Source of the DNA: Dryococelus australis
Lineage: Eukaryota > Arthropoda > Insecta > Phasmatodea > Phasmatidae
Length of the DNA: 64,000 nucleotides
NCBI GenBank assembly: GCA_029891345.1
Contig: CM057000.1
Span: forward strand, 127,261,338 to 127,325,337
Reading direction: 5' to 3'
The position numbers and the translations under genes are program-made. The notes beneath the pieces were generated by a model. That model did no database searches. It saw only the letters and a program-made list of their open reading frames with translations, and had not been told where the DNA came from. Positions 4,427 to 50,659 of this stretch are shown one piece after another (positions within the stretch are counted from its first letter, which is position 1; the number at the start of each line of letters is the position of its first letter).

Positions 4427-4490
<64 letters not shown>

Positions 4491-4590
4491 AATGGGGCCT
4501 TAGTAGCTCATTTGATAGAGATATTCCAAGTGAGATCGCAGTGGCTCAGTGGATAGAGAAATAGTAAATGGGACCCCAGTTTTGTTATTA
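4292..4590 (+). repeat. 38-bp tandem array of tRNA A-box-like monomers
   Basis: Monomers start at 4292, 4330, 4368, 4406, 4492 and 4530, with a broken seventh at 4568. All complete ones are exactly 38 bp except the fourth, which is swollen by a (TA)n run at about 4430-4488. Each carries GGGGCCGCAGTGGCTCAGTG-like sequence followed by GATAGAG, so each holds a match to the tRNA A box (TGGCTCAGTGG). No B box is present. A second (TA)n run follows at 4591-4642. Confidence 0.8.
4430..4488. repeat. (TA)n microsatellite inside array monomer 4
   Basis: A pure AT dinucleotide run that begins exactly where other monomers read GTGGATAGAG. This suggests it grew from the GATA(TA) part of one monomer. Length may vary between assemblies. 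Confidence 0.9.

Positions 4591-4642
<52 letters not shown>
4591..4642. repeat. (TA)n microsatellite
   Basis: Dinucleotide run just downstream of the 38-bp tandem array, probably of the same origin. Confidence 0.9.
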
Positions 4643-10267: not shown

Positions 10268-10962
10268 ATTGAAATTGGTTTGTGGTCCCTAGAAGACACC
10301 AACGGAAAAAGAAGAAGAAGAAGGAAATTGGTTTGTGGTCCCTAGAAGACCCTAACGGAAAAAGAAGAAGAAGGAAATTGGTTTGTGGTCCCTAGAAGAC
10401 ACCAACGGAAAAAGAAAAAGAAGAAGGAAATTGGTTTGTGGTCCCTAGAAGACACCAACGGAAAAAGAAGAAGAAGAAGGAAATTGGTTTGTGGTCCCTA
10501 GAAGACACCAACGGAAAAAGAAGAAGAAGAAGAAGGAAATTGGTTTGTGGTCCCTAGAAGACACCAACGGAAAAAGAAGAAGAAGAAGGAAATTGGTTTG
10601 TGGTCCCTAGAAGACACCAACGGAAAAAGAAGAAGAAGAAGGAAATTGGTTTGTGGTCCCTAGAAGACACCAACGGAAAAAGAAGAAGAAGAAGAAGGAA
10701 ATTGGTTTGTGGTCCCTAGAAGACACCAACGGAAAAAGAAGAAGAAGAAGGAAATTGGTTTGTGGTCCCTAGAAGACACCAACGGAAAAAGAAGAAGAAG
10801 AAGGAAATTGGTTTGTGGTCCCTAGAAGACACTAACGGAAAAAGAAGAAGAAGGAAATTGGTTTGTGGTCCCTAGAAGACACTAACGGAAAAAGAAGAAG
10901 AAGAAGGAAATTGGTTTTTGGTCCCTAGAAGACACTAACGGAAAAAGAAGAAGAAGAAGGAG
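10268..10962 (+). repeat. Minisatellite, ~51-56 bp unit with (GAA)n tail, 13 copies
   Basis: Each unit has a constant block (GAAATTGGTTTGTGGTCCCT then AGAAGACACCAACGGAAAA) and a variable AGAAGAAG tail of 2-5 triplets. Copies are near identical. The last three share an ACTAACGG variant and the last alone carries TTTTTGG, which suggests directional spread. The purine-rich strand is plus. Upstream 10130-10267 is also purine-rich. Confidence 0.9.

Positions 10963-11817: not shown

Positions 11818-11909
<92 letters not shown>
11800..11909. repeat. (AAAT)n-(TA)n compound microsatellite
   Basis: A short AAAT tetranucleotide run (about 11800-11822) passes into a long TA run ending near 11909. Another short TA run is at about 11994-12011. 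Confidence 0.9.
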
Positions 11910-19123: not shown

Positions 19124-19356
19124 CAGGGCGAGTCCTTTAAAAAAGGCCCCGTGAGACGTGTGTAACGGATCGAGGGAATGAGGAAATACAGTCCAGTGTG
19201 ACAACAAAATTCCTGGAGTAGGTGCTGGAAGTGGCCGCCATTGACACTTCCCGCACCTGCTCCAGGTATTTTGTTGTCACACTGGACCGTATTTCCTCAT
19301 TCCCTCGCTCCTTTACACACATGTCCCACGGGGCCTCTTTTGAAGGACTCGCCCTG
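19124..19356. mobile_element. M2 near-palindromic TIR element, copy 1
   Basis: 233 bp, almost entirely two inverted arms of about 115 bp with roughly 10% mismatch. Ends CAGGGCGAGTCCTT on both sides; TA at 19122-19123 and 19357-19358. Copy 2 at 32949-33415 is the same length once its nested insertion is removed. It has no coding capacity; transcripts would form a long hairpin. Confidence 0.85.
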
Positions 19357-29729: not shown

Positions 29730-30570
29730 CACCATTGCCTGTATGTTGAAGTCAACTGGGTTTTAATAAATATGTAAATTAATATTTTTCCATGCTCGCG
29801 ACAAAACTATAAGAAATATACAAAGATTTAACAACGTGTAGTGTTAAAAACTAGCCCTCATATTCGCGTGGTTGTAAAATAACTGCTTCAGTGTAAGTTG
29901 GAGATGTTACAGATGTAATAATAAATTCATTTGGAACACAAAACATAAAAAAAGATTTTTAAAAGCAAAAGCCAAAAATCCTGCCGGCGACAAAAGGTTA
30001 ACAAACTTATAATTATCGTATAGTGACAATGAGTATCCTTATGACAGTTCATGTTTTTGTAATAGTAGGACTTCAGTGTAACACACGTTAAACAAATGTT
30101 ACACTTAATAAATTATTGGGAACTCAACATACAAGAGAATAGTTTTAAAAGCAATATTTGAGAAATCTCAAAAAGAAATCTGATAAAAACCGCGGTGGAA
30201 ATATAACATTAAAGGAACAAAGTAGTTTTTTTTAATGGCGATACGTAGCTGGATTGAACTTACAGAAAAATACTTTTAAATCCTATTTATTTCTAGAAGC
30301 GTTTATCGTGTATATGCAAAAATGAAAAGGTTTTCTTTTCCACCCTTGTAATTTATTATGACATTTCTTGTCTCTAGAATTAGGCATCTCTTAGAACGTT
30401 TTCAGTGTGTACTGGGAATATATTTCGTCATTTTCGGTTTCCCAATGCACTAGCACGTTCGGAATTCCAAAGTTATATTGAGCACACTGATTCTGCTTTT
30501 AGTTGACTATTGGAGGGAGATATTATGTAACCCTATTAGTGTGAAAAGTAACTAACATACACTTCTATTA
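29730..30570. other. No gene recognised
   Basis: AT-rich, unassigned. Confidence 0.45.
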
Positions 30571-41535: not shown

Positions 41536-41725
41536 CGAACGAGTTATTCGCGACATGCAGAAACGTTGCACAGTCTGTGTGGCCAATAGTGAGCACCATT
41601 TTGCTAAGACACTTCAGATGTGTATCCTTCCGAACGAGTTATTCGCGACATGCAGAAACGTTGCACAGTCTGTGTGGCCAATAGTGAGCACCATTTTGCT
41701 AAGACACTTCAGATGTGTATCCTTC
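41536..41725. repeat. Tandem duplication, 2 x 95 bp
   Basis: Units 41536-41630 and 41631-41725 begin CGAACGAGTTATTCGCGAC and look identical or nearly so. They lie in a GC-rich patch (41290-41830). 95 is not a multiple of three, so the duplication would shift any reading frame. Confidence 0.85.
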
Positions 41726-41829
41726 CGAACCACGATTCTGCAATGATAGCCATAATCAGCTATGCGAATGAACTGTGTGTCGAATAATGAATCGGACTGT
41801 CTACCGTCTCACGAACATGGCCGTCGCCA

Positions 41830-43874: not shown

Positions 43875-43877
43875 GTA

Positions 43878-44446
43878 CACTATCTACCAAAAAGTAATTG
43901 GGCACCCGTGAAGATAGGTAATTCAGTACGTCAGTTGACTTGTGTTTCACGGCCTTCGGCGTAGGACCGCTAGTGTTTGTCCGTGGTAGCGTGAACACAG
44001 AGGCCTATTGTAACAATCTGGATAATGAAGTGCTCCCAACATTTTGGCGTGTTTACGGAATGAACCAGTGTTACCTTTACGATGACAATGCCAGGTGCCA
44101 TATTTCAAGGGCTACTATGCAGTGGTACGTCGACAAAAATGTTTGCCGATTGGACTGGCCCGCACAGAGCCCCGACCTCAACCCTATAGAACATCTTTGG
44201 GACGAATTGGATTGTCGGGTGAGGGCTCGTCAGGCGCGGCCAAAATCCATTGCTCAACTCATGGAATGGTTGCCAGAGGAATGGCGACGAATCCCCGTGG
44301 ATGTCCTGCAAACACTCGTAGAGAGTATGCCAGACAGGGTGGCTTCTGTTATAGCCGCAAGAACTGGAACTACGAGATTCTAACGGAGTGACAACCACCG
44401 AGCAAACATTGCGGTCAGGTGCCCAATTACTTTTTGGTAGATAGTG
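43878..44446 (+). mobile_element. Tc1-like element, internally deleted
   Basis: 569 bp. The terminal inverted repeats match for about 28 bp (CACTATCTACCAAAAAGTAA then TTGGGCACC). TA at 43876-43877 and 44447-44448. Between them only the last third of a transposase remains, fused to ~60 bp behind the left end. A full Tc1-like element is usually 1.3-1.7 kb, so about 1 kb has been lost. The near-perfect ends suggest it moved recently or was moved in trans. Confidence 0.9.
43940..44383 (+). pseudogene. Tc1-like transposase, C-terminal part
   Basis: Open to the TAA at 44381-44383 but begins without ATG (TTG at 43940), so it is the remnant of a longer gene. Tc1 transposases cut and paste DNA using a DDE triad. 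The second Asp is in YLYDDNARCH and the Glu in DLNPIEHLWDEL, with 34 residues between them, the D34E spacing of Tc1. The segment GPLVFVRGSVNTEAYCNNLD precedes the second Asp, as in complete enzymes. The DNA-binding domain and first catalytic Asp are deleted, so no activity is expected. Frame and motifs after the junction look intact. Confidence 0.9.
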
Positions 44447-44449
44447 TAA

Positions 44450-49174: not shown

Positions 49175-49538
49175 ATTGGCATAACATTTTTTTTTTTAAT
49201 GGCACAGCTTCAGGTTGTAGTAATGAAATCTGCAGTTCCTACTGTCAACTTGTTTACTTTTTACAGAGTACTATGTAGATGTAAATTAGAATGAGTCTCT
49301 AGTTTGCCCCTCGTTCGTCATGGAGATGAGTCGAGTGTGGTGTCGACCCACTTGAAGGTATGACCTGGAAGAACCAAACACGTGTTCCTCCCATTCAGAG
49401 TGTTGGCATTCAGGTACCAATGTTATATGGAAACTTGCTGGCATCAATATTTTCTTCATCATTTTGGTGTTGTTCGCCAACTACTTGGCCATTGATTAAT
49501 TGTGCTCTGCATCCCAGTATATGTTCTTCAAGGAACAT
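49175..49538. other. No gene recognised
   Basis: Minus-strand frames at 49286-49480 and 49410-49655 have no recognised domain; the second runs into the 113-bp array. Confidence 0.35.
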
Positions 49539-49540
49539 GC

Positions 49541-49992
49541 GCTTTTGAAGATTGTCAGTAGATGCACTTCGACTCCCATCATTCGTAGCACGGCGTCGAA
49601 GACTAACCCCGGCCATTGAAATTGCGCGTTGTGCAGCTTCTACACGTATATGCACTTTTGAAGATTTTCAGTAGATGCACTTCGACTCCCATCATTCGTA
49701 GCACGGCGTCGAAGACTAACCCCGGCCATTGACATTGCGCGTTGTGCAACTTCTACACGTATATGCACTTTTGAAGATTGTCAGTAGATGCACTTCGACT
49801 CCCATCATTCGTAGCACGGCGTCGAAGACTAACCCCGGTCATTGACATTACGCGTTGTGCAACTTCTACACGTATATGCACTTTTGAAGATTGTCAGTAG
49901 ATGCACTTCGACTCCCATCATTCGTAGCATGGCGTCGAAGACTAACCCCGGTCATTGACATTGCGCGTTGTGCAGCTTCTACACGTATATGC
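49541..49992. repeat. Tandem array, 4 x 113 bp
   Basis: Units start at 49541, 49654, 49767 and 49880, exactly 113 bp apart, with only a few substitutions. Each contains CTTTTGAAGATTGTCAGTAG, CATTCGTAGCACGGCGTCGA and CCATTGACATTGCGCGTTGT. The period is not a multiple of three, so any frame crossing it changes phase at each unit. Confidence 0.9.
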
Positions 49993-50141
49993 GCAGTTGT
50001 ACCATACAATTTTCAAAAATGTCGGTCGCAGGCAGGACACCTTTTGTTAGGCTCGTTTCACATCATGTACTGAAGAAACGACCTATCACATGATCCTGGT
50101 TTTATTGACAGCTGTCCTCTTTGTACTTTTTCAAAACATTA

Positions 50142-50629
50142 AATGTAACATACACTTATCTTTAACAAACGGTAGATGACTATATATAAAGACCATTAGA
50201 CTGTTTACGAATTTCGGTGGTGACGTATAGCTTACTTGGATTGGGAAGCGAGACTACAGGCAGACTAGAATTCGTCCACAGATTGAGGGCAAAATCTGTT
50301 GTCGTGTTATATGGAGAAGCTTATAATTTGTTTCGTCAGTGTATGTCAATTATGTATATATACACTCACAATTGCCATATATATATATATATATGGCAAT
50401 TGTGAGTGTATATATACATAATTGACATACACTGACGAAACAAATTATAAGCTTCTCCATATAACACGACAACAGATTTTGCCCTCAATCTGTGGACGAA
50501 TTCTAGTCTGCCTGTAGTCTCGCTTCCCAATCCAAGTAAGCTATACGTCACCACCGAAATTCGTAAACAGTCTAATGGTCTTTATATATAGTCATCTACC
50601 GTTTGTTAAAGATAAGTGTATGTTACATT
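50142..50629. repeat. Perfect 488-bp palindrome
   Basis: Two 244-bp arms meet with no spacer at 50385/50386 inside GCCATATATATA/TATATATATGGC. I compared the arms base by base and found no mismatch. The two 62-codon frames (50217-50405 plus, 50366-50554 minus) are the same sequence mirrored. An AT-rich (TA)n follows at 50632-50657. A clear target duplication cannot be called. Confidence 0.95.
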
Positions 50630-50659
50630 ATATATACTATATATATATATATATATAGT

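Follow-up and report, generated by a model that had tools for sequence, protein, structure and literature searches.

What kind of sequence is a palindrome whose two 244-bp arms match perfectly and meet without a spacer, and how could it have come to lie in an animal genome? We addressed this question for a locus of Dryococelus australis within a stretch of 64,000 nucleotides (assembly GCA_029891345.1, contig CM057000.1, positions 127,261,338 to 127,325,337 of the forward strand), referred to here as the window and numbered from its first base. The palindrome is unusual for its perfection, yet it is no new kind of thing: most likely it is either a small mobile element without coding sequence or a copying error by local fold-back, and a function of its own is improbable.

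The palindrome covers 488 bp (50142–50629), with 244 of 244 pairs complementary and a spacer of 0, and a second inverted-repeat listing gives the same pair. Its axis (50385/50386) falls inside an alternating (AT)9 tract. These results confirm the earlier note on this DNA, which had described a mismatch-free 488-bp palindrome without spacer and identical arms centred on an AT run. The chance expectation for arms of at least 244 bp in 64 kb of the same composition is about 3e-137. Folded as single-stranded DNA, the palindrome reaches −295.7 kcal/mol compared to −42.1 ± 4.4 kcal/mol for 100 shuffled sequences (0/100 as good), and the predicted fold as RNA is −439.2 kcal/mol; both energies are those of any perfect palindrome of this length. 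The further statement that transcripts would give perfect dsRNA stands at this predicted energy as a matter of thermodynamics, for an RNA that spans both arms. The coordinates of the arms, of the central tract and of the sequence features at the edges are compiled in Table 1.

Table 1 Features of the palindrome and of its edges (positions in the window)
Feature	Position	Strand	Remark
ACATTA adjoining left edge	50136–50141	+	same 6 bp at 50625–50630, 5 bp inside right end
Left arm	50142–50385	+	244 bp, 35% GC
First TA of arm, candidate left copy of the target site in the case of a TA-targeting element	50146–50147		inferred, weak
ACATACACT immediately after first TA, possible element end	50148–50156	+
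Inverted recurrence of ACATACACT within arm	50338–50346	-	mirror at 50425–50433
Central alternating AT tract, (AT)9	50377–50394		contains axis
Right arm	50386–50629	-	left arm on opposite strand, 0 mismatches
Mirror of outer ACATACACT, possible other element end	50615–50623	-
Mirror TA, possible right target-site copy	50624–50625		inferred
AT-rich run starting at right edge	50630–50659		contains alternating tract 50638–50657

Among the best 20 zero-spacer perfect palindromes listed for the window, the next 19 all lie in one AT tract (11822–11909) and have arms of at most 44 bp. A local inverted-repeat BLAST listing missed several foldbacks, and we therefore used a listing of 159 inverted-repeat pairs (arms of at least 25, at most 600 apart). 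Five non-AT foldbacks picked from the 25 longest of these pairs carry 24/142, 24/127, 8/81, 12/77 and 9/65 mismatches, and the remaining 100% pairs in the 25 longest are alternating AT tracts. The claim that all other foldbacks carry many mismatches consequently holds for the five non-AT foldbacks checked (8–24 mismatches), drawn from the 25 longest of 159 pairs. The long foldback next most similar to the palindrome lies at 19153–19325 and has 81-bp arms with 8 mismatches and an 11-bp spacer. Alternating AT tracts of 60 and 50 bp, separated by ~100 bp, are found at 4429–4642.

The window reads as a repeat-rich animal genome, and some peptides derived from its repeats appear similar to those of stick insects such as Dryococelus australis. 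It contains 105 inverted-repeat pairs of at least 60 nt, 30 tandem-repeat rows and only three open reading frames of at least 150 aa. Tandem repeats include a 53-bp unit present 13 times with 95% matches (10271–10961), a 95-bp unit present twice with 100% matches (41536–41730) and a 113-bp unit present four times at ~97% likeness (49537–49992), the last of which ends 150 bp to the left of the palindrome. A coding or RNA gene was rejected as the identity of the palindrome: its longest open stretch, 71 codons at 50190–50402, matched no Pfam family, ARAGORN detected no tRNA in the window, and no Rfam family was found in the window at gathering score.

Both edges are sharp. Comparison of the reverse-complemented left flank with the right flank yields identities of 45%, 36% and 30% for the adjoining 20, 50 and 200 bp, respectively, where random 50-mers share 26% on average (95th percentile 38%), and minus-strand BLAST between the 5-kb flanks returned no match at E 0.01. 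Since the flanks diverge at once on either side, the palindrome is sharply bounded. Its surroundings are AT-rich: an alternating run of at least 12 within the next 30 bases, as seen from the right edge, occurs at 0.6% of window positions, a fraction that about doubles if either edge is counted.

We tentatively place first, at somewhat less than even confidence, the reading that a MITE-like or foldback non-autonomous DNA transposon, non-coding and palindromic over its whole length, was inserted here at an AT-rich site. The mobility of such an element, its enzyme and the position of its ends we infer as follows. The arms would represent its terminal inverted repeats, joined without internal sequence, and a transposase provided in trans would recognise the ends and insert the element. 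The most plausible enzyme would be of the TA-targeting Tc1/mariner type, with AATG-TA-CATT as the target. The arms would be identical either because the copy is recent or through upkeep by hairpin-templated repair. In size and form the palindrome agrees with known insect MITE-like elements: at 488 bp it is short, as MITEs are (generally <600 bp), and, with an open stretch of 71 codons at most, it has no recognisable coding frame. It also possesses terminal inverted repeats, the whole unit being one inverted repeat, which is true of any palindrome and hence does not discriminate. In Anopheles gambiae, 6 of 32 novel MITE-like clusters are reported to be palindromic repeats (PMC3212995), and Tc1-like elements are described as favouring AT-rich sites (PMC4877112). 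The sharp edges and the presence of a Tc1-like transposase fragment in the window likewise speak for the transposon. The earlier proposal of a newly inserted foldback element remains the leading reading, although insertion is not proven.

The ends of the putative transposon were examined for target-site duplications. With symmetric ends trimmed by 0–15 bp, there is no duplication of 3–10 bp and only TA or AT pairs are found; because every TA in the palindrome is mirrored by necessity, a TA duplication is nearly empty evidence. If asymmetric ends are allowed, CATTA/ACATTA at the left edge is repeated at the right end, where 5 bp of it lie within the palindrome, a duplication that we do not favour since it would need 5 bp of chance complementarity. 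A better sign of a transposon end than either duplication is the inverted recurrence of ACATACACT within the arm, which was noticed after the fact and arises in 0.22% of 5000 shuffles, or in 0.58% if either orientation is accepted; outside the palindrome, ACATACACT occurs once in the window, at 30555. Symmetry over 4 bp of the AATG-TA-CATT type is shown by only 14 of 4635 TA sites when pure-AT sites are set aside, and by 151 of 5092 when they are included. Elements with terminal inverted repeats in Drosophila are reported to prefer palindromic targets, with symmetry up to 3 bp past the duplication (PMC3276498), a preference in favour of the transposon. The 4 bp of symmetry needed here is one above that reported value and argues against it. 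The window moreover contains no second copy, and none of the duplications is informative, two further points against the transposon.

A Pfam scan of 8 other open reading frames of the window gave one hit above cut-off, a Tc1-like transposase fragment at 43922–44380 (DDE_3, E 5.1e-8, 33.3 bits compared to a cut-off of 28.6), and one sub-threshold hit (Rap-GAP_dimer, E 0.075). The fragment belongs to a short Tc1-like element (43876–44448) in which perfect 31-bp inverted repeats beginning with TA surround an open frame of 153 aa (between stops) matching DDE_3, and which looks like an internally deleted copy. The outer part of the arm bears a weak likeness to its repeat at 43876–43906, noted post hoc and equalled in score by 1.5% of 3000 random 60-mers. 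This match would place the end at the TA at 50151–50152 and ACATACACT would place it at 50146–50147, so that the two hints disagree; we take ends in common with this element as a lead only.

Searches for further copies covered the window and several sequence collections. In the 64-kb window, no second copy was detected by blastn (E 1e-3) or nhmmer (E 10). A candidate at 30553, where the 12-mer TAACATACACTT recurs, was rejected as chance, its neighbourhood scoring 24 and thereby within the 18–27 range of 30 random windows. Searches with the 488 bp at E 1e-5 returned nothing from 'phages', 'plasmids' or 'ecoli_genomes', and a bacterial, phage or plasmid origin was rejected. Three 21-base arm words had no exact match in viral_contigs. 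One 18-base arm word had 2 matching stretches in genome_contigs, where chance alone would give about 7 over 257 billion bases, and beyond this word the arm found only chance-level matches (E at least 0.8). These phage, plasmid, bacterial and contig collections are without animal genomes and therefore say little on copy number.

A local fold-back duplication is nearly as likely as the transposon and was absent from the four options of the earlier note. It would have started from a single ancestral arm followed by an AT tract, in which a 3′ end, left by a break or a stall, turned back on itself, copied 244 bp and rejoined the AT-rich sequence beyond; we regard this course of events as quite possible, though again at less than even confidence. 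The right arm is a reverse-complement copy of the adjacent sequence, and fold-back copying predicts (i) perfect arms and (ii) no clear target duplication, both of which are seen. An AT tract at the axis is combined with an AT-rich run from the right edge, comparable to only 0.6% of window positions. This run suits fold-back duplication at least as well as the transposon, and a transposon preferring AT-rich targets would also explain the right edge. Priming by fold-back is covered in a review (PMC7999016), and perfect inverted repeats are reported to arise by local template switching (PMC7954356). In great apes, however, the reverse-copied stretch of such switches is reported to have a median length of 12 bases and never to exceed 128 (PMC7954356), against which 244 copied bases are long. 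The process moreover requires two switches, and homology at the right junction amounts to no more than about 1 bp. The order of the transposon over fold-back duplication is close and a matter of our judgement of how frequent palindromic MITEs are.

The perfection of the arms sets an upper bound on their age. A mutation rate of 2.8e-9 per site per generation was assumed. At this rate, 0 differences in 244 pairs limit the age to at most about 2.2 million generations (95% bound), and at 1e-8 per site per generation the bound is about 0.6 million generations. The palindrome can therefore not be claimed to be very young, as had been suggested. Gene conversion or hairpin-templated correction between the arms is possible; since such correction could hide more age, both bounds may be understated.

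A third explanation, in which the second arm is a sequencing or assembly artefact and absent from the genome, we consider improbable. Long-read data do contain fold-back reads (PMC12870357), and the published Dryococelus australis assembly was built from PacBio CLR reads with wtdbg2 and scaffolded with Omni-C reads, its methods section describing no polishing (PMC10268593). A fold-back read would mirror to its end, whereas the two flanks of the palindrome show no relation to each other right from its edges and do not mirror towards a read or contig end. As the flanks gave no match at E 0.01 and agree at 36% of the adjoining 50 bp, the assembly artefact of inverted-read joining put forward in the earlier note is disfavoured, and the immediate divergence of the flanks rules against a simple fold-back artefact as the main reading. 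The tool presented in PMC12870357 calls an artefact only for a fold near the read midpoint, which the palindrome does not resemble, and three PacBio samples in that work were without systemic fold-backs, these being samples other than CLR genomic data of Dryococelus australis. Least probable of all is a selected locus, either a gene for a long hairpin RNA or a cruciform whose perfection is maintained for the use of its pairing: a single transcript is predicted to form a 244-bp duplex at the energy given above, but such folding is common to any perfect palindrome, the single arm is without special structure (z −0.24, 79 of 200 shuffles as good) and the window holds no Rfam match at gathering score.

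Comparison with known systems places the palindrome close to several of them by form. Palindromic MITE-like elements of Anopheles gambiae are likewise non-coding, a few hundred bp long and built of arms that meet (PMC3212995); they constitute multi-copy families, whereas the palindrome is represented by one copy in the 64-kb window, and the two are likened by form and not by sequence. Template switches (PMC7954356) and fold-back priming (PMC7999016) share with the palindrome the local reverse-complement copy that produces perfect inverted repeats. Human PATRRs, as described in PMC4940405, are spacer-free and several hundred bp long, and the palindrome is like them in this respect and in being at least nearly perfect; they differ in composition, with >90% AT compared to ~65% AT in the arm. 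A survey of perfect inverted repeats with spacers of at most 8 reports no human arms >140 bp and finds arms in the hundreds of bp and above to be rare overall (PMC13155455). Long perfect spacer-free palindromes thus seem uncommon in animals.

If the palindrome is one of many copies, it represents an ordinary young repeat family. We give somewhat less credence, though still an appreciable amount, to a single-copy, non-transposon locus at which a completed fold-back-and-rejoin event at the AT tract doubled 244 bp exactly in place. If true, this locus would carry a reverse copy about twice the longest reported from great apes (128 bases; PMC7954356) and exceed the longest human perfect arm in the survey (140 bp; PMC13155455), and it would persist in an animal genome despite the fragility expected of long perfect palindromes. 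A perfect case of 244 bp, if real, would offer natural material for work on the stability of cruciforms, on hairpin-templated correction and on the birth of MITEs or inverted duplications.
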